From Gordonia humi (lineage in GTDB: Bacteria > Actinomycetota > Actinomycetes > Mycobacteriales > Mycobacteriaceae), in NCBI RefSeq assembly GCF_014197435.1, contig NZ_JACIFP010000001.1, forward strand, positions 2,046,001 through 2,110,000: 64,000 nt of DNA, read 5' to 3'. Shown one piece after another: positions 2,888 to 42,881 of the stretch. Position 1 is the stretch's first letter. Each line of letters opens with the position of its first letter. The notes under the pieces are model-generated. The model had not been told where the DNA came from. It searched no databases and saw only the letters and a list, made by a program, of their open reading frames with translations. Both the position numbers and the translations under genes were made by a program.

Positions 2888-4438
2888 CTACGCCTCGTGG
2901 CGCGGGAACACCGGGCTGGGCTGGGGCAGGACGGTCCCCGGGGCCAGCCGGTCGCCGAGCGAGGCGAAGGTGCGCGCATCGGCGTCGACGGCCAGGTAGT
3001 CGAGGATCGTCGACGTCGAGCCGGGCATCGTCGGCTGGGTCAGCAGCGTGACGATCCGGACCACCTCGGCGCACACGTACAGCACTGTCCCGGTGCGTTC
3101 GAGGTCGGTCTTGGCGAGTTTCCACGGCTCCTGCGCCGAGATGTACCGGTTGGCGTCGGCGAGCGCCGACCACAGGGCTTCGAGGCCGAGGTGGATGGCC
3201 TGGACGTCGAAGTGCGCGCGGACCTTCTCCAACAGCGCGTCGGCGGTGTCGAGCAGCGCCCGGTCGTCGGCGGTGAACTCGCCGGGCGTCGGGAGCACGT
3301 GGTCGAAGTACTTGCCGACCATCGACAGGGTGCGCTGCGCGAGGTTGCCGTATTCGTTGGCCAGGTCGGCGTTCTTCCGGGAGACGATCGCCTCGGCCGA
3401 GTACGAGCCGTCCTGTCCGTACGAGACCTCGCGGAGGAAGAAGTAGCGGACCGGGTCGAGGCCGAACTCGGAGATCAACACGTGCGGGTCGACGACGTTG
3501 CCGACCGACTTGCTCATCTTCTCGCCCTTGTTGAACAGGAAGCCGTGCGCGAACACCCGCTTGGGCACGGCGATCCCCGCACTCATCAGGAACGCGGGCC
3601 AGTACACACAGTGGAAACGGATGATGTCCTTGCCGATGACGTGCAGATCGGCGGGCCAGTAGCGGTCCATCGTCGCCGGATCGTCGGGGAAGCCGACACC
3701 GGTCAGGTAGTTGGTCAGTGCATCGACCCATACGTACATGACGTGTCCGTCGGCGCCGGGAACCTTGACGCCCCAGTCGAAGGTGGTGCGCGAGATCGAC
3801 AGGTCGGTCAGTCCGCCCTCGACGAACCTGACGACCTCGTTGCGTCGCGAGTCCGGTCCGATGTACTCGGGGCGGTCGCGGTACAGGTCGAGCAGTGGCT
3901 CGGTGTACTTGGACAACCGGAAGAAGTACGTCTGCTCCTGCGTCCACGTCAGCTTGTGGCCGTTCTCGGTGGCGATCCGATCGCCGTCGTCGTCGAGGCT
4001 GGTCTCGTCCTCGGTGAAGAACGCCTCGTCGCGTACGTCGTACCAACCGGCGTACGTGTCGAGATAGATGTCGCCCGCGGCCTCCATACGCTTCCAGATC
4101 TCCTCCGACGCGCGATGATGGTCGGCGTCGGTGGTCCGAATGAACCGGGTGAGGTCGGTGCCCAGCGCGTCGTGCAGCGCCTGGAAGCGGTCGGAGTTCC
4201 GACGCGCCAGCTCGGCGGTCGACACGCCTTCGGCCTCCGCCGTCTGCTGCATCTTCTGACCGTGCTCATCGGTGCCCGACTGGAAGCGGACGTCGAAGCC
4301 GTCCAACGCCTTGAACCGGGCGAGAACGTCCGCCGAGATGAACTCGTAGGCGTGCCCGATGTGCGGGGCGCCGTTCGGGTACGCGATGGCGGTGGTGATG
4401 TAGTACGGCCGGGAGGCGTTTTCGGGGGCGTTGACCAT
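2888..4438 (-). CDS. metG: methionine--tRNA ligase
   Basis: A class I aminoacyl-tRNA synthetase of 516 residues that charges tRNA-Met. The HIGH signature is in [11 protein letters not shown] (about residues 18-28) and the KMSKS loop in [15 protein letters not shown] (about residue 305). A C-terminal anticodon-binding helical domain holds the usual W.L.K (EPWKLAK). There is no C-terminal tRNA-binding OB extension, so this is the short actinobacterial form. It is 16 bp downstream of the GH65 gene and 29 bp upstream of pabB, all on the minus strand, so it is probably co-transcribed. The start ATG at 4438 is preceded by a GGGAACATT stretch that can serve as the ribosome site. Confidence 0.97.
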
Positions 4439-4454
4439 AATGTTCCCAGGATAG

Positions 4455-6899
4455 TCAGAGCGAGCGACGGTACGGCTCGCACCCCGCGGGAGCGGCCGGA
4501 GCCTGTCGCGGGAGAGGCTGGGAGATCGGCTTGCGGACCGCGACGTCGCCCAGCACGAAGCGTTCGCCGTGATGCGCGAGTTCGATGGTCGGACCCGACA
4601 TCAGCCGGTACGTCGCCGAGTCGGCGGTGATCGCGACCACGATGCGCGACTCGCCGATCGTCATCCGGAAGCTCATGTAGGTGAGCTGGCGCGGCAGCTG
4701 CGGGGCGAACGTGATGTCGCCGCCGAAGTCGCGCATCCCGCCGAAGCCCGCCACGCAGTCGGTCCACGCGCCCGCCAGGGCCGCGATGTGCAGACCCGAC
4801 GACACATTGGAGTGCAGGTCGTGCAGATCGGTGAACACCGATTCGCTCATCAGGTCGTAAGCCAGGTCGAGGTAACCGACCTCGGCGGCGGTGACCGCCT
4901 CGCAGCATGCCGACAACGACGAGTCGCGCACCGTGATCGGGTAGTAGTAGTCGAAGTTCTTGAGTTTCTGCTCGGCCGTGAAGTGCTGGCCGAACAGATA
5001 CATGGCGAATACGAGATCGGCCTGTTTGACGACCTGCTTGCGGTAGAGGTCGTAGTACGGATAGTTCAGCAGCAGGGGGTAGCGGCCGCGCGAGCGGTCG
5101 AAGTCCCAGCGGTCGAGCAGGGTGAAGCTCTCGGACTGCTGGTGCACGCCGAGGGACTCGTCGTATCCGACGGTCATGTCGTCGGCACACGCCGTCCAGT
5201 GCGCGGTCTCGGCGGCGGTGACCCCGAGATCGCGTGCCACGCTGGGGTGTCGCCCGGCTGAGGCGACGGCGTCGCGCAGCGCCTGCTGGGCGGCCAGATT
5301 CGTGAACAGGTTGTTGTTGACGATGGCCGTGTACTCGTCCGGTCCGGTGATGCCGTCGATGCGGAACTTCCCGTTCGCGTCGTGGTGGCCGAGACCGGTG
5401 AAGAAGCGGGCGATCTCCACCAGCAGCTCGACGCCGCACTCGATCTCGAACGCTTCGTCGCCGGTGGCGCGGATGTAGCGGGCCGTCGCATTGGCGATGT
5501 CGGCGGACACGTGGACGCCCGCGGTGCCCGCGGGCCAGTACCCCGAGCACTCGTCGCCGTTGATCGAGCGCCACGGGAACATGGCGCCCGATGCGCCGAG
5601 TTCGGCGGCGCGGGCCTTGGCCTTGTCCATGGTGCCGTGCCGCCAGCGCAGTTCCTCGCCCGCGGCCGCGGGCACGGTGTAGGTCAGCATCGGCAGGACG
5701 AAGGTCTCGGTGTCCCAGAAGGTGTGCCCGTCGTACCCGGGGCCGGTCAGGCCCTTCGCCGGAATCGCCCTGGACTGCCCGCGTGCACCGGCCTGCAGAA
5801 TGTGGAACAGCGAGAACCGGAGAGCCTGCTGCATCTCCGAGTCGCCGTCGATCTCGATGTCGGCGTCGGCCCAGAACTCTTCGAGGTAGGCGACCTGTTC
5901 GGCCTTGAGCGCATCCCATCCCGTCTCACGGGCCATCGCCAGCGCGGCATCGACCTGCGCGCGGAGCGCGGGCACGCTGCGTCGCGCCGACCAGCCGTAG
6001 CCGAGGAACTTGGTGAGCACGATCTTGCTGCCTTGCGGCACGGTCGCCGCGACGGTCAGTCGGGCGAGGTCGCCGTCGGCGCGGATCGAGGTGTCGCCGG
6101 TGGCGGGCAGTTCCAGTTCGTGGTCCATCGCGGCGGCGACGGTGAGTGCCGAGCGTCGGGTGTGGTGGACCAGGACGGCCGAATAGTCTTCACAGTCGGC
6201 GAGGTCGGCGACCAGCGGCTTGTCCAGGGCGGCGGCCAACCGCGGATCGTCGGCCGCCGACTTCCCGCCCGGGCCGCCGATCGGCTCGTTGGCGAGCAGA
6301 TCGGACTGCAGCACCAGTTTCATGTCCTCGCCGACCGGCTCCACCTCGTAGCGGATCGCGGCCACCGTGCGTTTGGTGAACGAGACCAGGCGCTCGGATC
6401 GGATGCGGACGGTGCGGCCGGTCGGCGAGGTCCACAGGGTCTCGCGTTTGAGGGTGCCGGTCTTGAAGTCCAGGACGCGCTCGTGTTCGACGGTGCTGCC
6501 GTACCGCAGGTCCATCGGCTCGTCCTCGACGAGCAGGCGGATGATCTTGCCGTCGGTCACGTTCACCACGGTCTGCCCCGACTCGGGGTAGCCGTAGCCG
6601 CTCTCGGCGTACGGCAGATCGCGCAGCTCGTAGAAGCCGTTGAGATAGGTGCCCGGGACGTCGACCGGCTCACCCTCCTCGAACGTGCCGCGCAGACCGA
6701 TGTGGCCGTTCGAGAGCGCGAACAGCGCCTCGGTGCGCCCGATGGTGTCGATGTCGAAGCCTCGCCACCGCAGTTCCCACGGACTGACGTCGAATCCGTG
6801 GTCCGGGCGCGTGCCGTGGACGGGCACGTTCAGTGTGTCCGGATGGCTCGACGTGTCGCCGTGGGTGGTGTGCGCGAGGTCAGCGGAGTACTGGTCCAT
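4455..6899 (-). CDS. glycoside hydrolase family 65 disaccharide phosphorylase
   Basis: An 814-residue cytosolic enzyme of the GH65 clan (maltose, trehalose, kojibiose and nigerose phosphorylases). These cleave an alpha-linked disaccharide with phosphate to give beta-glucose 1-phosphate plus glucose. The N-terminal beta-sandwich begins at [20 protein letters not shown]. The (alpha/alpha)6 catalytic barrel has [34 protein letters not shown] and the catalytic acid in [16 protein letters not shown]. The C-terminal sheet contains DITFAPQLP. The upstream gene encodes a beta-phosphoglucomutase-like HAD enzyme, the known partner that turns beta-Glc1P into Glc6P. The 17-bp gap supports one operon. Exact disaccharide specificity is not decided by these motifs; trehalose or maltose are the natural guesses for a mycolic-acid actinobacterium. 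Confidence 0.9.
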
Positions 6900-7685: not shown

Positions 7686-8537
7686 GTGAGTTCCAGCAAG
7701 AAGGACCGTCGTCGCACACCCCCGCCCGACCCGGAGCCGCTGCCCGGTCTGATCGACGCCCACACCCACCTCGCGGCCTGCGGCGGGCGCACCGCCGAGG
7801 ACGTCCGCGCGATCCTCGACCACGCCGAGGCGGTCGGCGTGTCGCAGGTGGTGACCGTCGCCGACGACATGGTCGACGCCCGCTGGGCCGTGGCGGCCGC
7901 GCACTGGGACGCTCGCGCATTCGCGGCGGTGGGGCTCCATCCGACGCACGCCGCCGACCTCGACGACGCGGCCCGCGCCGAACTGGAGGAGATGTCCGGC
8001 GACGAGCGGGTCGTCGCCATCGGCGAGACCGGCCTGGACTACTACTGGACGACGCGCTCGTACGACTGCGCCGACCCGGCGGTGCAGCGCGACGCGTTCG
8101 CCTGGCACATCGACCTGGCCAAGCGGACCGGCAAGGCGTTGATGATCCACAACCGGGAGGCCGACCGCGACCTGCTCGACGTCCTCGCCGCCGAGGGGAG
8201 CCCGGAGACCGTGGTGATGCACTGCTTCTCCGGCGACCGCGCGATCGCGGCCGAATGCGTCGACCGCAACTACTACTTGAGCTTTTCCGGCACTGTGACG
8301 TTCGGCAACTCGGACGAGTTGCGTGCCGCGGCCGACATCACCCCGGCCGAGCTGATGCTGGTGGAGACCGATGCGCCCTTCCTGACCCCGCATCCCTACC
8401 GTGGCCAGCCGAATCAGTCGTATTGCGTGCCGTACACGGCTCGGGTTCTGGCCGCCGTCAAGGGGCTCGACGAGCAGGAGACGGCGCGGATTCTGGGGGC
8501 GAACGCGCGGCGTGCGTACTCGTTGCCGTTGCGCTGA
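7686..8537 (+). CDS. tatD: TatD family metal-dependent hydrolase/DNase
   Basis: A 283-residue metallo-hydrolase with a TIM-barrel fold. The first metal site is LIDAHTHLAACGG. Further ligands lie in AIGETGLDYYWT, KALMIHNREADRD, VVMHCFSGDRA and LMLVETDAPFLTPHP. This is the TatD (3'-5' exonuclease/deaminase-like) arrangement with all metal ligands present. The GTG at 7686 gives MSSSKKDRRRTPPP and clears the divergent HAD gene by 64 bp. It is the first gene of the conserved tatD-rpfB-ksgA-ispE run of mycolic-acid actinobacteria (Rv1008-Rv1011 in M. tuberculosis from memory). Confidence 0.93.
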   Translation: MSSSKKDRRRTPPPDPEPLPGLIDAHTHLAACGGRTAEDVRAILDHAEAVGVSQVVTVADDMVDARWAVAAAHWDARAFAAVGLHPTHAADLDDAARAELEEMSGDERVVAIGETGLDYYWTTRSYDCADPAVQRDAFAWHIDLAKRTGKALMIHNREADRDLLDVLAAEGSPETVVMHCFSGDRAIAAECVDRNYYLSFSGTVTFGNSDELRAAADITPAELMLVETDAPFLTPHPYRGQPNQSYCVPYTARVLAAVKGLDEQETARILGANARRAYSLPLR

Positions 8538-8590
8538 CAGCACCCTTTTCGTTACCGTATCGTGATCCCGCAACTGATCAGGATGAATGA

Positions 8591-9706
<1,116 letters not shown>

Positions 9707-9723
9707 CGCCTATTCTTGGCGGT

Positions 9724-10596
9724 ATGCCTCCTCGACTCCTCGGTCCCGCCGAGATCCGCGCGCTCGCCGCGGAGTTGGACGTCCGGCCCACCAAGACACT
9801 GGGTCAGAACTTCGTCCACGATGCGAACACGGTGCGTCGCATCGTCACCTCGTCCGGTGTCGGCGCCGACGACGTGGTCCTCGAAGTGGGGCCCGGACTC
9901 GGGTCGCTGACTCTGGCACTGCTCGGTGAGGCGGGGCGCGTCGTCGCGGTCGAGATCGACTCCAAGCTGGCCGCCCGGCTGCCGCGGACCGTCGCCGATT
10001 TCGCGCCCGAACAGCGCGGATCGCTCGACGTGGTGACCGCCGACGCGCTCACTGTGACCCCTTCCGACCTGCCGGCGACGCCCACCGCGCTGGTGGCGAA
10101 CCTGCCGTACAACGTCGCCGTTCCGGTGCTGCTGCATCTCATGGCCCAGCTCCCGACGCTGCGCACCGCGCTGGTGATGGTGCAGGCCGAGGTCGCCGAC
10201 CGCCTCGCGGCGACCCCCGGAGGCCGTATCTACGGTGTGCCGAGCGTCAAGGCGCGCTACTACGGCGACGTCACGCGCGCCGGGTCGATCGGCAAACACG
10301 TCTTCTGGCCCGAGCCCAAGATCGAGTCGGGTCTGGTCCGTATCGAACGGACCGACCGGTTCGGGCTCGACGAGGACCGTCGTCGTCGCACGTTCGCGGC
10401 GATCGACGCCGCATTCGCTCAGCGACGCAAGACCATGCGTTCGGCGCTGGCGGTCTGGGCCGGCAGTCCGGTGCGCGCCGAGGAACTGCTGCGCGCCGCC
10501 GACATCGACCCGCGGATCCGCGGCGAGCGCCTCGAGGTGGACGACTTCGTGCGCCTCGCCGACGTCGCCGCATCGGCGGATATCATCGAACGATGA
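9724..10596 (+). CDS. rsmA: 16S rRNA (adenine(1518)-N(6)/adenine(1519)-N(6))-dimethyltransferase
   Basis: KsgA/RsmA of 290 residues dimethylates two adjacent adenines in the 3' terminal hairpin of 16S rRNA, a late step of 30S assembly. The SAM-binding core shows [33 protein letters not shown] and [14 protein letters not shown]. The catalytic NLPY motif is in [16 protein letters not shown]-terminal helical domain contains RRKTMRSAL. The ATG at 9724 gives the expected N-terminus and sits 17 bp after rpfB. Its stop overlaps the ispE start (ATGA-type), so the two are translationally coupled. Confidence 0.96.
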
Positions 10597-11510
10597 TGAT
10601 CGGCGGTGCCACCGCACGAGTCCCCGCGAAGATCAACCTGCATCTGGGCGTGGGACCGCTGCGCGACGACGGGTTCCACGAACTGTCCACCCTGTTCTGC
10701 GCCCTGGGCATGCACGACGATGTGACCGTCCGTCCGGCCGAGGAGCTGACGGTGACGGTGACCGGCGAGAATCGTCGTGCCGTGCCGTCGGATGCGTCGA
10801 ATCTCGCGGCGAGGGCCGTCGTCGCCCTGGCGGATCGGATCGGGCGGTCGCCCGACGTCTCGATCACCATCGACAAGCACATCCCCGTCGCGGGCGGCAT
10901 GGCGGGTGGATCGGCGGACGCGGCCGGTGCATTGATCGCCGCGGCGCGTCTCTGGCGCGTCGACCGCGATCAGGTCGACCTGCACGAGATCGCCGCCGAA
11001 CTCGGATCGGACGTGCCGTTCTCGCTGACCGGCGGCGCGGCACTCGGCACCGGTCGCGGGGAGAAGCTGCTGCCGGTGCTGCACCGCGGCGAGTTCCACT
11101 GGGTCCTCGCGGTGTCCGGGACCGGACTGTCGACGCCGGACGTGTACCGCGAGTTGGACCGGCTCCGCGCGGCGGGCGACCGCACCACCGACGCGGGAAC
11201 CGCGCGTCCCGACGGGTTGATGGTGGCCATCGCCTCCGGTGACGTCCGCGCGGTGGCTCCGCTGCTCCACAACGATCTGCAGCCCGCGGCGCTCTCGCTG
11301 CGGCCGCTGCTTCGTCGCACGCTCCGCGCGGGCACCGAGGCCGGAGCCCTGGCGGGCATCGTCTCGGGTTCGGGACCGACGTGCGCCTTCCTGTGCGCCG
11401 ACGCCGCTGCCGCGGTGGACGTCGCCGCGGAGCTGTCCGGCTCCGGCGTCGCCAAGGCGGTACGGACCGCGTCCGGTCCGGTCGCGGGCGCCCGACTGGT
11501 GCCCCACTGA
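10593..11510 (+). CDS. ispE: 4-diphosphocytidyl-2-C-methyl-D-erythritol kinase
   Basis: A GHMP kinase of 305 residues in the non-mevalonate isoprenoid pathway; it phosphorylates CDP-methylerythritol. Motif I is [12 protein letters not shown] near the N-terminus. The ATP-binding loop is [17 protein letters not shown] (about residue 90), and motif III near the C-terminus is [13 protein letters not shown]. Length and order fit IspE. The ATG at 10593 overlaps the ksgA stop; a second ATG lies one codon later. The product feeds isoprenoid precursors needed for menaquinone and decaprenyl phosphate. Confidence 0.95.
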
Positions 11511-11573
11511 CGTTCCTACGCCCTCGCACCGATCTCACCACCCACAACCGTCACACGACACAGAACGGAACCC

Positions 11574-13397
11574 ATGGCCTCGGTCAACAACGGCACCAAC
11601 ACCTCACTGATCACCGCGGAGAAGATCAGTAAGAGCTTCGGGATCAAACCGCTGCTCGACGAGGTGAGCGTCGGCGTCCACGAGGGCGAGCGGATCGGCG
11701 TCGTCGGACTCAACGGAGGCGGTAAGACCACGCTGCTGGAGATCATCGCGGGCATCACCGAACCCGATGAGGGACGGGTGTCCCGCGTCGGGGGCGCCGT
11801 GGTCGCCACGGTCACCCAGCGCGGGGAGATGCCTGCCGATCACACGGTGGCCGATGTCGTGGTCGGGGTCGGGGTGGCCGAACACGAGTGGGCCGCGGAC
11901 GCGAAGATCCGCGGCATCATGGAGGGCATCGGTGTCGACGAGATCCTCGACCGCAAGGTCGACGAGCTCTCGGGCGGGCAGCGTCGTCGCACGGCGCTCG
12001 CGGCCGCGCTGGTCACCGACGCGGACCTGCTGATCCTCGACGAGCCGACCAACCACCTCGACATCGAGGGCGTGCACTGGCTGGCCGAGCACCTGAGCAA
12101 CAGGCGCAGTGCGCTGATCGTCGTGACGCACGATCGCTGGTTCCTCGACACCGTCGCCACCCGTACGTGGGAGGTCCACTCCGGCCGCGTCGACGAGTAC
12201 GAGGGCGGCTACAACGACTGGGTCTTCGCCCGCGCCGAACGCGCCCGACAGGCCGACGCCGCCGAGGAGCGCCGCCGCAACCTGGCCCGCAAGGAACTCG
12301 CCTGGCTGCGCCGCGGAGCACCCGCGCGCACGTCCAAACCCAAGTACCGGGTGGAGGCCGCCGAGAAGCTGATCTCCGACGTCCCGCCGCCCCGCGACTC
12401 GGTCGCGCTCTCGGCGTTCGCCAAGCGTCGACTCGGCCGTGTCGCGATCGAGCTGGAGAACGCGCAGTTGCGCACGCCCTCGTCCGACGATCGGCCCGGC
12501 CGCGTGCTGTTGGAGGACACGACGTGGCGGTTGGCGCCGGGGGAGCGGGTCGGTCTGGTCGGTGTGAACGGCTCAGGCAAGACCACACTGCTTCGCGCGC
12601 TCGCCGGCGACGCATCGGTCGAGCCCGGCAAGCGCATCGAGGGCAAGACCGTATCGATCGGTTGGCTGCGGCAGGAACTCGACGACCTCGACGAGTCGCT
12701 CCGGGTGCTCGACGTGGTCGAGAGCGTCGCGGGCCACATCATGCTCGGCGACAAGGAGCTCTCGGCGAGCCAGCTCGCCGAACGCCTCGGCTTCTCGCCG
12801 GCCCGCCAGCGGACTCCGGTCCGCGACCTGTCCGGTGGCGAGCGTCGTCGCCTGCAGTTCACCGTCGTCCTGATGGGCGAACCCAACGTCCTGTTGCTCG
12901 ACGAACCGACCAACGACCTCGACATCGACACCCTCCAACAGGTCGAGGACCTCCTCGACTCGTGGGCGGGCACCCTCGTGGTGATCAGTCACGACCGCTA
13001 CCTGATCGAGCGGATCTGTGATTCGACGTGGGCGCTGTTCGGCGACGGGAAGCTCACCAACCTGCCGCGCGGCATCGAACAGTATCTGGAGCGACGTGCG
13101 CGGGACGCGCAGAAGCCGACCAAGTCGGCGGTGCGACCGGCCGAGGCCACGGCCGCCGCGGACGAGGCGAAGGTCTCCGCGGCCGAGCATCAGGCCGCGC
13201 GCAAGGAGTTCAACGCCGTCGAGCGGAAGATGGAGAAGCTGTCCGGGCAGATCTCGACGCTGCACGAGCAGATGGCGGCGCACGACCAGAGCGACTACAC
13301 CGGCCTCGGTGAGCTGACCGAGAAGGTACGGGCCGCCGAGATCGAGAACGAACAGCTCGAGGAGCGGTGGCTGGAGTTGTCGGAGATCATCGGCTGA
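11574..13397 (+). CDS. ABC-F family ATP-binding protein (Uup-like, duplicated ATPase)
   Basis: A 607-residue soluble protein with two ATPase cassettes and no membrane segment. Cassette 1 has GLNGGGKTTLLEI, LSGGQRRRTALA and LLILDEPTNHLD. Cassette 2 has GVNGSGKTTLLRAL, LSGGERRRLQF and VLLLDEPTNDLD. The linker (about residues 210-280) is rich in Arg/Glu/Ala as in ABC-F proteins. The C-terminal ~90 residues form a predicted coiled coil (EATAAADEAKVSAAEHQ...), as in Uup. ABC-F members act on ribosomes or in DNA repair rather than transport. It follows ispE by 63 bp and is closed by a strong hairpin at 13454-13486. A resistance role is possible but not indicated. Confidence 0.9.
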   Translation: MASVNNGTNTSLITAEKISKSFGIKPLLDEVSVGVHEGERIGVVGLNGGGKTTLLEIIAGITEPDEGRVSRVGGAVVATVTQRGEMPADHTVADVVVGVGVAEHEWAADAKIRGIMEGIGVDEILDRKVDELSGGQRRRTALAAALVTDADLLILDEPTNHLDIEGVHWLAEHLSNRRSALIVVTHDRWFLDTVATRTWEVHSGRVDEYEGGYNDWVFARAERARQADAAEERRRNLARKELAWLRRGAPARTSKPKYRVEAAEKLISDVPPPRDSVALSAFAKRRLGRVAIELENAQLRTPSSDDRPGRVLLEDTTWRLAPGERVGLVGVNGSGKTTLLRALAGDASVEPGKRIEGKTVSIGWLRQELDDLDESLRVLDVVESVAGHIMLGDKELSASQLAERLGFSPARQRTPVRDLSGGERRRLQFTVVLMGEPNVLLLDEPTNDLDIDTLQQVEDLLDSWAGTLVVISHDRYLIERICDSTWALFGDGKLTNLPRGIEQYLERRARDAQKPTKSAVRPAEATAAADEAKVSAAEHQAARKEFNAVERKMEKLSGQISTLHEQMAAHDQSDYTGLGELTEKVRAAEIENEQLEERWLELSEIIG

Positions 13398-13453
13398 CGG
13401 CGCCACCCGGCGAAGCACGCGTGTACGTGGACATCGCCGGTAGCCGCTCCGGT

Positions 13454-13486
13454 CGCTCGCCGCGCCGGACGACGGCGCGGCGAGCG
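13454..13486. terminator. strong hairpin between convergent genes (terminator)
   Basis: A perfect 13-bp stem (CGCTCGCCGCGCC paired with GGCGCGGCGAGCG) closes a 7-nt loop. It lies in the 102-bp gap between the convergent ABC-F and CrtC-like genes. No U-tract follows, as is common in actinobacteria. It could stop transcription from both sides. Confidence 0.75.
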
Positions 13487-13499
13487 CAGGGGAGTCGGA

Positions 13500-14645
13500 T
13501 CAGAGGAACGAGTCCTCACGAGTCAGACCGTAGCGGGGGTGTTCGCCGACGATCGACTCGAAGATGCCGTAGCCGGTCGCATCGCCCTCCTTGGTTCGGA
13601 TCACGCAGTCGCGAAGCTGGTGCGCCTCGTCGATCGTCTCCCGTCGTGTCATGTCCTCGTACCGTTCACCGGCGGTGTGGTCGACACCGTGCCACATGCC
13701 GTGGCGATCGCCCTTGAAGCCGAAGTACAGGGCGGTTCCGAGATGGAATCCGGTGTCGGACACCGGCTCGATCTCGATGGTCCGCTTCTCACCCCACCCG
13801 GCGTCGAAGGTCATCGTGCCGCCGAGGAGGCGTCGGGTGGCCGGATCGTACTTCAGGTCGTCGACGCATCCGTGCAGCGGTTCCTGCCTGCCGTCCGGGT
13901 AGTTGACGAACCCTGAGAAGTAGTGCACCTCGCCGTCGACCCACTGGAGGTAGTGGTGGATCTCGTATGGATCGCTCCCGTCGGCGGGTTGAAAGTACAT
14001 CGGACTCCAGGTGAGCAGGAAGTCCTCGTTCATCCTGTTCGGCGCCTTGACGTCCGGCGCCGGTTCGCCGACGTCCATCCGGACGCCCCACGAGCGGTCT
14101 CGGTAGCCGAGCCACGTCTCGTCGGTGATCTCGGTCCGTTCGCCGTCGATCTCCAACCACCCGGAAACAGTGCACAGCTGGTGGAAACGGCGCAGGTCGG
14201 AGGCCACCCGGAAGCCGTCGGACCCGCGTTGCGCGTCCTTGCGCTCCAGGAACGGCGGCAGCACGGCGGTGAGCGTGACGTCGAAACTGATCGGCTGCAC
14301 GTCGTTGGCGCGCAGCACGGCGCGCACCTTGTTCATCGGCTCCACGACCTCGTAGTCGATGGGTCCGACGCCCACACGACTGAAGTCGGTGTCCAGTTCG
14401 GTGCTGGCACGCACGGTGATCTGCTCGACGCCCCGGGAGACGCCGGCGAAACCGTCGATCACATTGCGGTTGTGATATTTGCCGATGCCGAAGTCGATCT
14501 GTACGGAGCCGTCGCGGGCGAACAGCGACAGCCAGACCTTCTCCGTCCACGAGATGTCGGCGTTGGAGACGGTGGCGAAGGTCTCGGGGGTCTGATGGAC
14601 GAGGTACTCGTCGGCGGGGACGACGACCTGCATGATTTGGCGCAT
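13500..14645 (-). CDS. uncharacterised CrtC/AttH-like (DUF7064/7065-type) protein
   Basis: A 381-residue soluble protein with no signal peptide or membrane segment. It reads as an all-beta, tryptophan-rich protein, with motifs such as ETWLGYRDRSWGVRMDVG (about residue 190), FLLTWSPMYFQPADGS and FDAGWGEKRTIEIEP. The RDRSWGVR motif and two-part layout resemble the lipocalin-like AttH/hydroxyneurosporene synthase (CrtC) superfamily, seen in many actinobacterial proteins of unknown function. It is the last gene of the swivel-domain operon (40 bp after the frameshifted fusion gene) and has its own AAAGGAACACCC ribosome site. Function is not known; by context it may act on, or carry, a hydrophobic product of the upstream enzymes. 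Confidence 0.5.
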   Translation of the reverse strand: MRQIMQVVVPADEYLVHQTPETFATVSNADISWTEKVWLSLFARDGSVQIDFGIGKYHNRNVIDGFAGVSRGVEQITVRASTELDTDFSRVGVGPIDYEVVEPMNKVRAVLRANDVQPISFDVTLTAVLPPFLERKDAQRGSDGFRVASDLRRFHQLCTVSGWLEIDGERTEITDETWLGYRDRSWGVRMDVGEPAPDVKAPNRMNEDFLLTWSPMYFQPADGSDPYEIHHYLQWVDGEVHYFSGFVNYPDGRQEPLHGCVDDLKYDPATRRLLGGTMTFDAGWGEKRTIEIEPVSDTGFHLGTALYFGFKGDRHGMWHGVDHTAGERYEDMTRRETIDEAHQLRDCVIRTKEGDATGYGIFESIVGEHPRYGLTREDSFL

Positions 14646-14684
14646 GGGTGTTCCTTTCGGGAGGTCTCGGAGTCGAGTCGTGAG

Positions 14685-16413
14685 TCAGCGGGTGGCGCTG
14701 AAGGCGCTCGGTCGGTCGTGCCCGACGAGCGCACCGCCGAAGATCGCGGCGGCCTGGTCGTCGTCCCCGAGCGGTTCGGGGAACAACGCCATGGTGGCGG
14801 GGGAGATCTGCCAGTCGATCGCGTCCTCGACTCCGGCGACCCGAGCGAACGGGCGCAGCCCCCAGGTGTACATGCGGGTCGCGGACAGGATCCGGTCGTC
14901 GCGGCCCATGTCGCTGAACGTCTGATACAGCTTCAGGTGCTCTTCACCGATACGGCCGGCGAGGTCGGGCCATTCGCTCGGCGTGAGGACTCGACTGGAG
15001 CCGTCCGCGTAGCGCGCGATGACCGACGCCGAGGTCACGGTCGACAGGAAGTTCTCCGGCTCGGTGAACGTGGTGCCCCAGTCGTTGATCTCGAACTCGC
15101 GGAATCCCTCGGTCGGGAACGACAGCACGAGCGTCACCCCGGCTACGCCGGGATCGCACTCGGCCGCCCACGGATACGAGAACTGCCCGGAGTCGAGGCT
15201 GAGGAAGTCGCGCACGAGCGTCGCGCGACCCGGCTCCTCGGGATACGGTCCGTTGTCGCAGATACCGACGCGCGAGTCGGTGAAGTACATGAAGCAGTAC
15301 CCGGACAGCGCCGCATTCAGTTGCCGCAGCGCGCGATTCGCGTCGTCGTCGAGAGGTGCGATGCGGGAGCGGAGCGATGCCACGTCGGCCGCGGGGAGGA
15401 AGCGGTTGGTGAAGCCCGCGTCCTTGTAGTCGAGTGTTCCGTCCCCGCGATGTGCCAGTGCCAGTCGCCGCCAGAAGTCCAGCACGGTCGCGACGTCGTC
15501 GAGGGCCTCATCGGGGGCGAGTCTGCCCATCGAGATCAGCAGCTCCCGTCCGCACAGGTAGTGGTAACCGACCATCCAGATCCACAACGGGCTGATCTGC
15601 CCGGCGTGGCGTAGCCGCGCGCCGATCTCCTCGGCGGACAGCGCCGCGTCGATGGCGCGAACTCGGACCGGATAGCTGTGGAAGTCCTCGACCACCGACA
15701 TCGACATGTACGGCATCATCGGGAAGATCTCCGAGGTGAAGTCCGAACGCCGTGTCATCTCCGGTTTGAACGACCGACCCATGTGACTGATCAACTGGTC
15801 GAGTCGGTCTCGGGTCAGCTCCTGTCCGAACAGGGCGGGCAACGCGAGCTCGTCGACTGAGGCCGGGAACGGTTTGCGGCCTATCTCGTCACCGGCCGCG
15901 TCCACGTAGTCCCACCAGTCGGTCGCCGGATCGCCGGAAGTCCGCGCGGTGCGCGGTCGGTCGGCGGCTGCCGCGTTCCCGGTCGGCACCGTCGAGCTCG
16001 TCCCGCCGGTCTCCGGAGCCTCAGGCGGTGTCGGCGGTGCGACCGCCGACTCGTCGCGGCCGGATGTCAACCATCCGTCGCCCGAGCTCGCCGCGCGTAG
16101 CGTCACCTCGTCGCCGTCGGCGGGACGCCAGCCGTCGAACTCCACGGACAGCAGACAGGGCACCTCGTACTCGCGCGAGACGATCGCCAGATGCGAGCGG
16201 GTGGTTCCGGACTGGCAGACGATGCCGCCCAGACGTCCCAGAACCGGGGAGGAAGGTGGTGCCGCCCGATTCGACGAGTGCGATCACCTCGTCGAGGTCG
16301 TCGCCGAAGGCGTCTATCACGTCCTGTGGGCTGCTGAACGTGCGTATCCGGCCGCTGCGCGCCCCGAAGTCGTACGAGCTGATGCCGGCGGCCGCCTTCT
16401 CCGACGTGGTCAT
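14685..16413 (-). pseudogene. swivelling-domain/unknown-domain fusion protein, frameshifted
   Basis: Two overlapping frames together encode one protein of ~575 residues. Frame A begins at ATG 16413 (MTTSEKAAAGISSYDFGARS) and reads a PEP-utilising-enzyme swivelling domain up to ALVESGGTTFLP. After the GGGG run at 16246-16249 the homology jumps to frame B, which continues LGRLGGIVCQSGTTRSHLAIVSRE. This holds the phosphorylatable His of the G.T.SH.AIV.RE motif. It then runs through an Asp/Thr/Pro-rich linker into a ~390-residue C-terminal domain that is clearly paralogous to the gene at 16410-17597. Shared motifs are GREL, ICDNGPY, NDWGT and TRMYTWGLRPFARVAG. Its start overlaps the upstream gene stop by 4 bp. 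Adding two bases in the C-tract restores one frame. It may be a real mutation or an assembly error. Function unknown. Confidence 0.65.
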
Positions 16414-17597
16414 CGTGCGCCCCCGATCGGCCGGAAACAGCTGTCTCGGTCGGGAGGCACGAAGATCCCGCCGATCAAGCCGAGCGCCACATCGGGATCA
16501 CTGAATCGCTCGTACGAGTCGGCGACCGACTCACTGACCGACCAGTCGATGTCGTCGTAGCACCCGGCGATGCGCGCCCACGCCTTGAGCTTCCAGCTGT
16601 ACATCTGGGTGGCGTACAGATTGCGTTCACGCGCGGGCGTCTCGGCGAGTCGTGCGTAGAGTGCGCGGTGCGCCGTGCGGATGTGTGCGGTCATCTCCGT
16701 CACGTCGGTGTGCGACAGGGGCCGCAGCCGACCGTCGCGGACCGCGAACACGCGGGCCGCGAGCACGTCTGCCAGATAGTCGTCCGGTTTGAACCAGGCG
16801 GTGCCCCACACGTTGTTGTCCATCGAGACCGAGTCCGGCAGCCGGTACGCCAACACGAAGTTGTGCTCGGGCAGAGTCTCCCGGATGCCGTCGAGCCAGG
16901 GGAAGTCGCCGACTCCGTCACAGGACAGTTCCCGCAGGGCGACGAACGTGCCGTCGCCGAGGTCGTACGGACCGGTGTCGCAGACCGCGGTCCGGGCATC
17001 GCAGTTCTCCAGGAACGCGTACGCGGTGAGGCGCGCTGCGAACTTGCGGATGGTCGCGGTCGCGGCGGCGTCCACCGGCTCGAGCTGGTCGACGATGTTC
17101 GCGAGGAGGTCGCCGTCGACGATGTGCGAGCTGTTCGCGGGATCGGCGTCCATGTTGTAGAGGACGCCGTCGGTGCGCATCGCGATGGTGGCACGGCGCC
17201 AGAACCGCAGCACGGTGAGTTGGTCGTCGAGACCCTGTGCGGCGTCGTTCTCGCCGAGGTCGACGAACAGTTCGCGGCCGGTCATGTAGTGCAACGGCAT
17301 CGCGGCGAGATTGATGAAACTGCGCTTGGAGCCGATCGGCAGTCCTGCGGCCACGATCTGTTCGGGTGTCGCGTGCGCGGCGATGGTGCGCAGCCGGTCC
17401 GGCACTTTGAGGTAGTCCTCCATCATCGACATCACGATGTAGGTGTTCATCCCGAAGAGTTCGGATTCGAAGACGGTGCGCAGTGCCAGCTCGTTCTTGT
17501 ACGCACGACCGCCCTCGTCGATGAGCTGATTCCACTCCTCGAGGGTCGGCTCGTAGTCGGGATCGGTGAGCAGTCGCGGGTGCGTCACGGCGGTCAT
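16410..17597 (-). CDS. uncharacterised ~395-residue partner of a phosphohistidine swivel domain
   Basis: A soluble, mostly helical protein of unrecognised family. Distinct motifs are ELFGMNTYIVMSMMEDY, MTGRELFVDLG, FWRRATIAMRTDGVL, ARTAVCDTGPYDLGDG, NNVWGTAWFKPDDY and ATQMYSWKLKAWARIAGC. The same series appears in the C-terminal half of the next gene (14685-16413), where it is fused to a swivelling domain. That fusion implies that this protein works with the small swivel protein encoded just upstream (17594-17875), with which it shares a 4-bp ATGA overlap. I see no ATP-grasp, PEP/pyruvate TIM-barrel or kinase motif, so it does not look like classical PEP synthase or rifampicin phosphotransferase. 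It may be an unknown phosphotransfer enzyme module. Function is inference only. Confidence 0.6.
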   Translation of the reverse strand: MTAVTHPRLLTDPDYEPTLEEWNQLIDEGGRAYKNELALRTVFESELFGMNTYIVMSMMEDYLKVPDRLRTIAAHATPEQIVAAGLPIGSKRSFINLAAMPLHYMTGRELFVDLGENDAAQGLDDQLTVLRFWRRATIAMRTDGVLYNMDADPANSSHIVDGDLLANIVDQLEPVDAAATATIRKFAARLTAYAFLENCDARTAVCDTGPYDLGDGTFVALRELSCDGVGDFPWLDGIRETLPEHNFVLAYRLPDSVSMDNNVWGTAWFKPDDYLADVLAARVFAVRDGRLRPLSHTDVTEMTAHIRTAHRALYARLAETPARERNLYATQMYSWKLKAWARIAGCYDDIDWSVSESVADSYERFSDPDVALGLIGGIFVPPDRDSCFRPIGGAR

Positions 17598-17875
17598 GCG
17601 GTCACCGCCGATTCGACGACGTCGATCGTCGCGGTCTCCGAGTCGGTCAGGCCCAGCCGGACCCGGGCTCCGTCGGGGATCTCACCGGCGATGGACGCGA
17701 CGAGTACGCACGGCACCGCGGATTCACGCGACAGGATCGCCAGGTGTGATTCGCGGCTGCCCGCGGTGCAGACGATCGCCTTCAGATCGGGAAGGATCGG
17801 CGACAGGAACGTCATCCCGCCCTTGTGGACGAACGCGATCGTGTCGTCGAGGTCGTCGTCGTCGATCTCGAGCAC
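17594..17875 (-). CDS. small PEP-utilising-enzyme swivelling (phosphohistidine) domain protein, probably N-terminally truncated
   Basis: From the GTG at 17875 the protein has 93 residues. It shows the phosphohistidine loop VCTAGSRESHLAILSRES (about residues 36-53), followed by VPCVLVASIAGEIPDGARVRL, the typical C-terminal strands of the swivelling domain of PEP synthase/PPDK. Compared with the paralogous domain at 16413, about 30-35 N-terminal residues (the first beta strands, SGRIRTFSSPQD) are missing. Directly upstream, on the opposite strand, is what looks like the C-terminal end of an SRPBCC gene. This suggests a deletion has removed the 5' ends of two divergent genes. Whether the shortened product still folds is uncertain. 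The stop overlaps the next gene. Confidence 0.55.
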   Translation of the reverse strand: MLEIDDDDLDDTIAFVHKGGMTFLSPILPDLKAIVCTAGSRESHLAILSRESAVPCVLVASIAGEIPDGARVRLGLTDSETATIDVVESAVTA

Positions 17876-18054
17876 GTCAGTACGACTCGATCCTGTCGGT
17901 GGGACCCGCCGACGGCGGCGGGACCCTCGTCGTATGGACCGCGGCGTTGTCGGCGGACGAGTCGGTGATCGCGATGGTCGAGTCGATGTACGACGGCGGG
18001 CTTGCGGAATTGACGTCGACGGCTGCTCGGGGCTTCGGTGCGCACGCGGACTAG
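17876..18054 (+). pseudogene. possible C-terminal remnant of an SRPBCC (polyketide cyclase/START-like) gene
   Basis: The frame ending at 18054 reads YDSILSVGPADGGGTLVVW, then TAALSADESVIAMVESMYDG and GLAELTSTAARG. This matches the usual last strand and long C-terminal helix of small SRPBCC proteins (a GGGTLV.W strand, then a V..MVE..YDGGL..L helix). No start codon, ribosome site or N-terminal part of such a protein is present. The frame to the left is only the antisense of the swivel gene. The last ~57 residues of an expected ~150 remain. It ends 10 bp before the enoyl-CoA hydratase-family gene. Family assignment is from pattern only. Confidence 0.4.
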
Positions 18055-18064
18055 CGTGAACACC

Positions 18065-19063
18065 ATGTCGTACATCCGCACCGCCGTGCAGAACGGTATC
18101 GGGGAGATCGTCCTCGACCGACCGAAAGCCCTCAACGCACTCGACCAGAGCATGATCGACGACCTCCACGACACCCTCACCGCGTGGGGTGACGACGATG
18201 CGGTCGACACCGTGCTCGTCACCTCCGCGAGTGACCGCGCCTTCTGCGCGGGCGGCGACATCCGGGCCGTCCGCGACAGTGCCGTCGCGGGCGACGCCGC
18301 GGCGGTCACGAAGTACTTCGCGAGCGAGTACCGCGTCAATCAGCTGATCGCCGAGTATCCGAAGCCGTACGTCGCCCTCGTCGACGGCGCCGCGATGGGC
18401 GGCGGCCTGGGCATCAGCGTGCACGGCGAGATCCGCGTCGTGACCGAGAAGGCGCTCATCGCCATGCCGGAGACCGCCATCGGTTTCGTCCCGGACGTCG
18501 GCTCGAGCTACTTCCTGCCCCGACTGCCTACGGGTGTCGGCATGTGGCTGGGCCTGACCGGCGCCCGGCTGCGCGGCGCCGACGCCGTCGCGGTGGGGCT
18601 CGCCACGCACTTCGTTCCCTCCGATCGAATCGAGAGGGTCGCCGAGACGATCCGCTCGGGCGCGGGCATCGCGGCCGCGCTGGCCGATCACCGTGATCCG
18701 GTGGAGGCGACGCTGCCGCTGCGCAAGATCGCCGACTACTTCGGCGACACCAACGTCGAGGGGATCGTCGGCGGTCTGCGCGGAGCGGTCGGCGACGAGT
18801 GGGCGGAGGAGATGCTGGCCCTGCTCGGTGCGGGGTCGCCGACCAGCTTGTTCGCCACCGCGCGCCTCATCGAACTGGGCGAGTCGTCGTCGCTGGCCGA
18901 ATGTCTCGAGCGTGAGCTGTCGACCGCGGAGAAGATCACCGCCCACCCGGACTTCGCCGAGGGCGTCCGCGCGGTACTCGTCGACAAGGACCGCGACCCG
19001 TCGTTCGCTCCGGCGACGATCGAGGAGGTCTCGGCGGCGTCGATCGCGGACCTGGTGGGGTAG
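18065..19063 (+). CDS. enoyl-CoA hydratase/isomerase family, 3-hydroxyisobutyryl-CoA hydrolase type
   Basis: A crotonase-fold enzyme of 332 residues, longer than typical enoyl-CoA hydratases (~260) and the right size for 3-hydroxyisobutyryl-CoA hydrolase, a step of valine breakdown. Oxyanion-hole segments are RAFCAGGDIRAV and VDGAAMGGGLGIS. The motif MPETAIGFVPDVGSSYFLPRL is diagnostic of the HIBCH branch. The C-terminal ECLERELSTAEKI... region also fits it. ATG at 18065 follows the SRPBCC-like remnant. No other valine-catabolism gene is adjacent, so this is function by family alone. Confidence 0.85.
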   Translation: MSYIRTAVQNGIGEIVLDRPKALNALDQSMIDDLHDTLTAWGDDDAVDTVLVTSASDRAFCAGGDIRAVRDSAVAGDAAAVTKYFASEYRVNQLIAEYPKPYVALVDGAAMGGGLGISVHGEIRVVTEKALIAMPETAIGFVPDVGSSYFLPRLPTGVGMWLGLTGARLRGADAVAVGLATHFVPSDRIERVAETIRSGAGIAAALADHRDPVEATLPLRKIADYFGDTNVEGIVGGLRGAVGDEWAEEMLALLGAGSPTSLFATARLIELGESSSLAECLERELSTAEKITAHPDFAEGVRAVLVDKDRDPSFAPATIEEVSAASIADLVG

Positions 19064-34842: not shown

Positions 34843-34914
34843 TCCGCCATGGTGTAATCGGCAACACTCCTGATTTTGGTTCAGGCATTTCAGGTTCGAG
34901 TCCTGATGGCGGAG
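34843..34914 (+). tRNA. tRNA-Gln (anticodon TTG)
   Basis: A 72-nt cloverleaf. The acceptor arms are TCCGCCA (34843-34849) and TGGCGGA (34907-34913), followed by a G discriminator. The anticodon arm is CCTGA-TTTTGGT-TCAGG with TTG in the loop, reading CAA glutamine codons. The T arm is CAGGTTCGAGTCCTG. The 3' CCA is not encoded, so it is added after transcription. It stands alone between glmU (opposite strand) and lcp. Confidence 0.93.
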
Positions 34915-34950
34915 CACAGGCGTGAGCGCAGTGCGACGCGGACGTGAACG

Positions 34951-37600: not shown

Positions 37601-39131
<1,531 letters not shown>

Positions 39132-39309
39132 AGCACACAACACTCTCGTGCTGTCCTCGAACGCAGGATGGGCGAGTGTGTGTTCATGGGTGAAACACAA
39201 GAAATCCACGCCTGCGGCGGGCACCCTGGTGGTGCCGGTCGTGCTGGTGAGCATCGATGTGGTGCTTGCTGGTGGTGGGGGTGTGTCGGGTGACCGGCAT
39301 GCTGGGATG

Positions 39310-39331
39310 TCACACGCTATCGGGGTTCTGA
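39310..39331 (+). other. 3' arm of the pre-16S processing stem
   Basis: The segment TCACACGCTATCGGGGTTCT with the following GA is the near reverse complement of leader 37398-37418. One bulge and a few wobbles are needed. It lies 183 bp after the 16S end. Confidence 0.55.
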
Positions 39332-39416
39332 GGGAATACACTGGGTGTGTTTCTTCGTGCTTGCTGGATGTCCGCGCACGTGTTGTGTGGTGGGTCGGGT
39401 GGGTGTGTGTTGTTTG

Positions 39417-39435
39417 AGAAGTAGATAGTGGATGC
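39417..39435 (+). other. 5' arm of the pre-23S processing stem
   Basis: AGAAGTAGATAGTGGATGC pairs with 42709-42727 (GCATCCACTATTTGCTTCT) over 19 positions: 17 Watson-Crick and 2 G-U. The pair encloses the 23S gene, exactly as an RNase III stalk should. Confidence 0.75.
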
Positions 39436-39558
39436 GAGCATCTTACATGTAAGGTGTGTATTGCAATTTCAATGAAAATGTGATGTCCACATTCGTGTCA
39501 CAGTCGACTGTTTCCCGCACTTGTGGGGGTGGTGGTTGTGGTGTGTTTGTGGGTGTTG

Positions 39559-42677
<3,119 letters not shown>

Positions 42678-42708
42678 ACAATGCTCACACGTTTTTGTTT
42701 GGTTGTTT

Positions 42709-42727
42709 GCATCCACTATTTGCTTCT
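42709..42727 (+). other. 3' arm of the pre-23S processing stem
   Basis: GCATCCACTATTTGCTTCT lies between 23S and 5S and pairs with 39417-39435 upstream of 23S. Eleven central base pairs are contiguous without mismatch. Confidence 0.75.
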
Positions 42728-42762
42728 GAGGCAACACACGTGTTTGTGTGTGTCTTGTGTTT

Positions 42763-42881
42763 TTACGGTGGTTTTAGCGGTGGGGGAACGCCCGGTCCCT
42801 TTCCGAACCCGGAAGCTAAGCCTGCCAGCGCCGATGGTACTGCACTGTAATGGGTGTGGGAGAGTAGGACACTGCCGTAAT
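42763..42881 (+). rRNA. rrf: 5S ribosomal RNA
   Basis: A ~118-nt 5S rRNA. Ends TTACGGTGG and CACTGCCGTAA pair. The core GGGAACGCCCGGTCCCTTTC, CGAACCCGGAAGCTAAGCC and AGCGCCGATGGTACTGC are typical actinobacterial 5S. It lies 86 bp after 23S. Confidence 0.95.

Follow-up and report, generated by a model that had tools for sequence, protein, structure and literature searches.

A damaged pair of phosphohistidine swivels in Gordonia humi, probably the remnant of a larger catabolic cluster

A 64,000-nucleotide stretch of the Gordonia humi genome (contig NZ_JACIFP010000001.1, positions 2,046,001 to 2,110,000; hereafter the window, in whose numbering positions are given) contains an inserted island at 13400–18062, lodged between an ABC-F gene (11574–13397) and an enoyl-CoA-hydratase-family gene that starts at 18065. 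The island carries two phosphohistidine swivelling domains, each with a partner domain, and is probably an internally deleted, decayed copy of a catabolic cluster of ∼18 kb. Read along the minus strand, its genes are a 5′-truncated remnant of swivel 1 (17594–17875, with a possible GTG start at 17873–17875), partner domain A, of 395 residues and intact in frame (16410–17597), a broken swivel–partner fusion gene (14685–16413) whose C-terminal part is a second partner domain, A′ (14685–15914), and an intact gene for an Rv3169-family (AttH/CrtC-like) protein (13500–14645). The plus strand holds at 17881–18054 the 3′ tail of a Y_phosphatase3–SRPBCC gene, which ends in a stop codon at 18052–18054 and abuts the truncated swivel.

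A sequence-only reading of the same interval had described an operon of swivels with a phosphorylatable His motif, lacking both an ATP-grasp domain and a phosphoenolpyruvate (PEP)-binding barrel and ending in a CrtC/AttH-like gene. These features stand. Swivel 1 matches PF00391 (PEP-utilizers mobile domain) at 17597–17872 (expectation value E 4e-8; 33.2 bits against a cut-off of 23.1 in a Pfam scan), and both swivels exceed that cut-off in a search of the genome. The predicted phosphate-accepting histidines, at 17744–17746 in swivel 1 (AGSRESHLAILSRE) and at 16191–16193 in swivel 2 (SGTTRSHLAIVSRE), both on the minus strand, lie in a conserved motif that recurs in relatives, a point which the earlier reading had left to be checked. 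Among the frames of the interval, the Pfam scan finds no ATP-grasp domain and no PEP barrel. The terminal gene scores far above the cut-off of the NCBIfam profile NF053593 (407 bits against 150; E 5e-122) and is DUF7065-like by a Pfam match below cut-off.

The partner domain is less easily placed. Partners A and A′ are paralogues with 33% identity. Partner A matches no Pfam or NCBIfam family, and neither its sequence nor a 24-row family profile finds a solved relative among PDB chains. Partner A gives a confident predicted model, and the fused form only a moderate one (mean pLDDT, the predicted local distance difference test score, of 71). In fold searches against the PDB, no PEP-binding, ATP-grasp or rifampin phosphotransferase (RPH) substrate domain occurs among the matches listed, which is not proof of difference. 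The profile comparison by hhalign gives a probability of 0.35% with one HpeH-type protein, a comparator assigned through PRK08296 and an adjoining ATP-grasp frame, and nothing useful with a second type of swivel protein (from locus L055). Homologues reach E≤0.001 in 147 of 7,999 candidate proteins scored, which is not chance, and those among the matches listed are annotated as hypothetical or uncharacterized. The domain is rare, occurring in 6 of 296 genomes of a class sample, and a description of the domain or of its cluster was not found in the open-licence literature at the level of titles and abstracts. The sequence-only reading, too, had been unable to place it. That reading had also proposed that the two domains act together, from their occurrence as separate genes and as a fusion. 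The separate gene is confirmed; the local fusion exists only across a frame break. Joint action is nevertheless supported, since swivel and partner form a unit that occurs split, fused and, in locus L037, fused again with a 202-residue protein.

Both local swivels are damaged. Swivel 1 is incomplete at its N-terminus: 9/9 relatives conserve there a stretch of at least 23 residues (in G. soli, GTGVNLF...ARWF...), and nothing like it is encoded by any of the three frames upstream of 17875. Swivel 2 is broken in frame. Three-frame translation places its N-terminal part (from 16413) in one frame and its His motif, together with the partner, in another; the change falls at ∼16240–16255, upstream of the His, with GGTTFLP and VLGRLGG...His in different frames. 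The comparison involves ten relatives that share this run of genes, hereafter the A arm (nine genomes from a related-locus search and a tenth, G072, from a relatives search). Eight of them have the fused gene as one open frame (L001, L002, L004, L005, L006, L008, L009 and G072, the last counted by a 544-codon open frame and a match in L047, the other seven by frame comparison), and two lack it (L003 and L007, also given as G123 and G127). A sequencing error might have produced the break, the deletion described below being then the only real lesion. This is possible though somewhat unlikely: the break consists of a single frame change, and the gene's partner part shows little divergence beyond that among relatives, but the deletion and the truncation hold independently of it. 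In Gordonia otitidis (L002, with which G048 is equated), the arm at 8001–12121 also appears damaged: partner A is interrupted by a stop codon in frame, and the Rv3169-family gene is divided between two frames near 11829.

The borders of the island are sharp. Homology to a congener (L065) ends at 13399 and restarts at 18063. Flanks of ∼1.5 kb were compared at 24 loci, the window's own included. The ABC-F and hydratase-family genes are adjacent, with a gap of <150 bp, in 3 of the 23 other congener loci (L065, L067 and L068) and ∼0.9 kb apart in one; in the rest no close homologue of the ABC-F gene is seen within these flanks. The hydratase gene is present in 41/41 genomes of the genus, own included. 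Beyond two 7-mers, neither direct nor inverted repeats were found at the borders of the island. The tail fragment is identified by a match, from 17881 to the stop codon, with the C-terminal end of a Y_phosphatase3–SRPBCC protein (48% over 46 residues, E 2e-8 against the island; 46% over 48 residues, E 9e-7 against the whole window). In G. soli, the outer stops of the cluster are 18,050 bases apart, against 4,555 bases between the same two ends here. Therefore, if the ancestor was G. soli-like, ∼13.5 kb would have been lost internally, and the boundary between the tail and the truncated swivel 1 is best taken as the inferred deletion junction.

What a working system would need was not found elsewhere in the genome either. 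The assembly comprises three contigs with 99.83% completeness. It yields no cognate ATP-grasp donor of the kind found in relatives; the best match (E 2e-4) is to a separate 915-codon frame, the sole PPDK_N protein found there by a search that is positive in 13/14 control genomes. With the type B partner of the relatives as query, only the two local domains are matched. A working system in this genome is thus rejected, both swivels being damaged and no cognate donor found, and an undescribed system operating at this locus is not supported. The decay looks recent, because pairwise identities show little excess divergence: partner A is 78–81% identical to four relatives, which are 77–86% identical among themselves; the Rv3169-family gene is 82–86% identical to three relatives (83–88% among relatives); and the A′ part is 65–72% identical to the G. 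otitidis, G. soli and N. higoensis copies (65–74% among relatives). These values, the intact frames of partner A and the Rv3169-family gene and the presence of a PPDK_N protein are what can be said for local genes that still function, their swivels receiving phosphate from the 915-codon ATP-grasp/swivel protein encoded elsewhere. With two damaged swivels and a 915-codon frame that has its own swivel and barely resembles the cognate donor, this is highly improbable. What one genome presents as an operon of two domains may thus be all that is left of something larger.

The larger system is seen in the ten A-arm relatives, all of which carry the whole cluster. Their A arm runs swivel 1, partner A, usually a swivel 2–partner A′ fusion, and the Rv3169 protein. 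A LuxR-type gene separates it from a B arm, which encodes swivel B (236 residues), partner B (∼503 residues), an AMP-ligase, the 202-residue protein, a 581-residue ATP-grasp/swivel donor, a biotin carboxyl carrier protein (BCCP), a biotin carboxylase (BC), a carboxyltransferase (CT), an OB-fold protein and a thiolase; some loci add the phosphatase–SRPBCC gene. The 202-residue protein has no Pfam match, and its gene adjoins that of the donor. In the G. soli-type layout (L001, L002, L003 and L009, with extensions), the arms are divergent and the Rv3169-family and phosphatase–SRPBCC genes lie at opposite outer ends, whereas in the Pseudonocardia, Rhodococcus and G072 loci the arms follow one another. 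By domain content, BCCP, BC and a PycB/OadA-type CT occur together in one cluster in the relatives only.

The constancy of these parts was assessed in a tblastn matrix of 24 loci from 23 genomes (two genomes with matches, G003 and G352, were left out; G032 and G048 were equated with L001 and L002, whose contig number and coordinates they share). Thirteen carboxylase-type loci were chosen by the presence of CT, so that its 13/13 is by construction. Swivel B, partner B, the donor, the 202-residue gene and the AMP-ligase are found in all 13 (the AMP-ligase of G194 and G319 being only 34–35% identical), BC and BCCP in 12, the A arm in 10 and the phosphatase domain in 7; the thiolase query has no match in G093. 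The other 11 of the 24 have swivel and partner, with BC or CT not found in the stretch; the donor is present in 8 of the 11 (not found in the stretch in G034, G017 and G182) and the 202-residue gene in 9 (not found in the stretch in G057 and G214b).

The sequence-only reading had advised searching genomes for the missing ATP-grasp gene near the pair. In relatives, this gene lies in the same cluster, and the donor is present in 9/9 of their genomes. One copy, from L034, was scanned with NCBIfam and scores 706.5 bits with PRK05878 (cut-off 456), a family to which Rv1127c (VadK) presumably belongs. The ATP-grasp and swivel parts of the donor align with pyruvate phosphate dikinase (PPDK; E 3e-107), with conserved ATP-grasp stretches; in two copies scanned, its own PF00391 swivel occupies residues ∼400–469. 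The donors of L003 and L009 match only PPDK_N and PEP-utilizers at E≤0.01. The PEP-binding barrel of PPDK is thus absent from the donor matches, and a donor completing a PEP synthase or PPDK is rejected.

VadK itself is an ATP-grasp/swivel protein, made more soluble by its operonic neighbour Rv1126c and reported to be a regulatory His kinase (PMC13400623). The donor resembles it in combining ATP-grasp and swivel without a PEP-binding domain, and the 202-residue protein parallels Rv1126c by position only; the available text of that report mentions no swivel–partner module for VadK (PMC13400623). By this likeness, donor and swivels might constitute a regulatory protein-phosphorylation relay, as described for VadK and methylcitrate enzymes, with the partner as sensor or target. 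The PRK05878 score of the donor, and the reports that VadK autophosphorylates on His and binds metabolic enzymes, point that way. One swivel per partner, the fusions and the catabolic gene setting fit substrate modules better, and a regulatory role is accordingly judged quite unlikely.

A closer precedent is found among two-component small-molecule dikinases, which, in the available text of the reports, include HpeHI, CreHI, PpsAB and AcvAB; of these, HpeHI is coupled to the biotin carboxylase HpeCBA, and AcvAB to a homologue of it (PMC9618137, PMC12167813). HpeHI phosphorylates hydroxyphenylethanones, the HpeH His is essential, and HpeCBA carboxylates the phosphorylated forms only (PMC9618137, PMC12167813); three variants of the Hpe pathway have been compared (PMC13101465). 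As far as these accounts go, the cluster shares with the Hpe type the placing of ATP-grasp on one polypeptide and of swivel and substrate parts on another, as well as the coupling to biotin carboxylase, phosphatase, CoA ligase and acetyl-CoA release. The separate nearby ATP-grasp subunit typical of HpeHI is found in the relatives and not in the window's own genome. There are also differences. The donor is of the PPDK type and brings a swivel of its own, whereas the ATP-grasp of the phenolic kinases is PEP-synthase-like and, in the same accounts, HpeI has no swivel. Furthermore, the swivel of the cluster is a separate protein or N-terminal to the partner, up to three swivel–partner pairs and the extra 202-residue protein are present, and the partner has no sequence match to the one HpeH-type protein compared. 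RPH differs in being a single chain, and aligned, among the matches listed, with the swivel part only of the fused model.

The earlier proposal of a swivel-dependent, dikinase-like enzyme of a new type is kept in its first half, as the best reading of swivel and partner. Its second half is softened, as small-molecule dikinases of two components that act with a biotin carboxylase are already published (HpeHI/HpeCBA); what is new lies in the type of donor, in the partner domain and in how many modules there are. The same precedent suggests an Hpe/Xcc-like aromatic pathway, in which the kinase would phosphorylate the ring hydroxyl of a hydroxyaryl ketone as a non-homologous replacement for HpeH/HpeI. 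The downstream logic of carboxylase, phosphatase, CoA ligase and acetyl-CoA release is identical, but ring-catabolism genes are unrecognised among the annotated frames, most flanking frames being unannotated. An aromatic substrate is a possibility to be kept in mind, though not the favoured one.

We infer every catalytic step, the relay and the class of substrate from the established chemistry of PPDK and RPH and from the Hpe precedent. The best reading of the intact cluster is a multi-component small-molecule dikinase that would prime a ketone for biotin-dependent carboxylation. A PPDK/VadK-type donor with its own swivel would take phosphate from ATP onto His, and the dedicated swivels would receive it from the donor His or straight from the ATP-grasp site. 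A His-to-His relay is possible because the donor has its own swivel and each partner also has one. Each swivel would then hand the phosphate to a small substrate held in partner A, A′ or B, with the 202-residue protein as a putative near-constant helper. BCCP, BC and CT would carboxylate the phosphorylated, ketone-bearing substrate, after which a phosphatase (in some clusters), the AMP-forming CoA ligase and the thiolase would release acyl-CoA units. In the most specific form of this reading, a VadK-type donor would charge its own swivel, which would pass the phosphate on to two or three interchangeable dedicated swivels. Each of these would serve a substrate domain of its own, for which the searches gave no solved relative, and the ketone would become a PEP-like enol phosphate for the carboxylase. 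Truncated PPDKs such as VadK-type enzymes might then serve distinct acceptor modules as phosphodonors. This most specific form is offered tentatively and is rather doubtful as a whole.

Several observations weigh against this interpretation. The label ‘substrate domain’ derives from position and pairing, because neither sequence nor fold searches matched the partner with any known substrate domain of a kinase. The donor's own swivel could act directly on a substrate or protein, the other swivels doing something else. In 11 of the 24 loci, swivel and partner occur with no BC or CT in the stretch examined, so that carboxylation is not necessarily what usually follows in the family. Finally, the window's genome contains a 496-codon carboxyltransferase frame (G000:C1:3133236-3134678) with 41% identity to the cluster CT.

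Acetone or another short ketone was considered as a possible substrate. A 1999 study reportedly described a nucleotide-dependent acetone carboxylase in Rhodococcus rhodochrous B276, which prompted the idea; no tie of such a cluster to acetone use by B276 was found in titles and the starts of abstracts. Beside the R. yunnanensis cluster (L036, L045), Pfam recognises an amidohydrolase, a PF01883 protein, an acyl-CoA-dehydrogenase-like protein and a GAF-domain protein. A di-iron hydroxylase is not among the proteins recognised there, the other frames being judged by eye and mostly unannotated; a link to propane/acetone operons is therefore not used. If the dikinase interpretation is true, the partner family would be the acceptor half of an actinobacterial kinase, truncated PPDK/VadK-type proteins would gain a plausible partner, and kinase-primed carboxylation of ketones would have a route parallel to Hpe.

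Related gene neighbourhoods deserve mention. In L037, APH/EcKL-like phosphotransferase genes (4393–5481 and 11346–12443; the family is shown for the first and assigned by eye for the second) stand beside swivel–partner fusions and an Rv3169-like gene, a neighbourhood that we take to recall Rv3168–Rv3169. In two relatives of the window's order (L055 and L056), the other type of swivel protein, of ∼560–610 residues, has a C-terminal swivel, and in L055 the frame that follows it resembles AttH-like proteins by eye. This suggests that swivel kinases and AttH-like proteins may be more widely paired. Elsewhere in the window, a complete rRNA operon (16S, 23S and 5S) lies at 37604–42880 on the plus strand, and a tRNA-Gln gene at 34843–34915.

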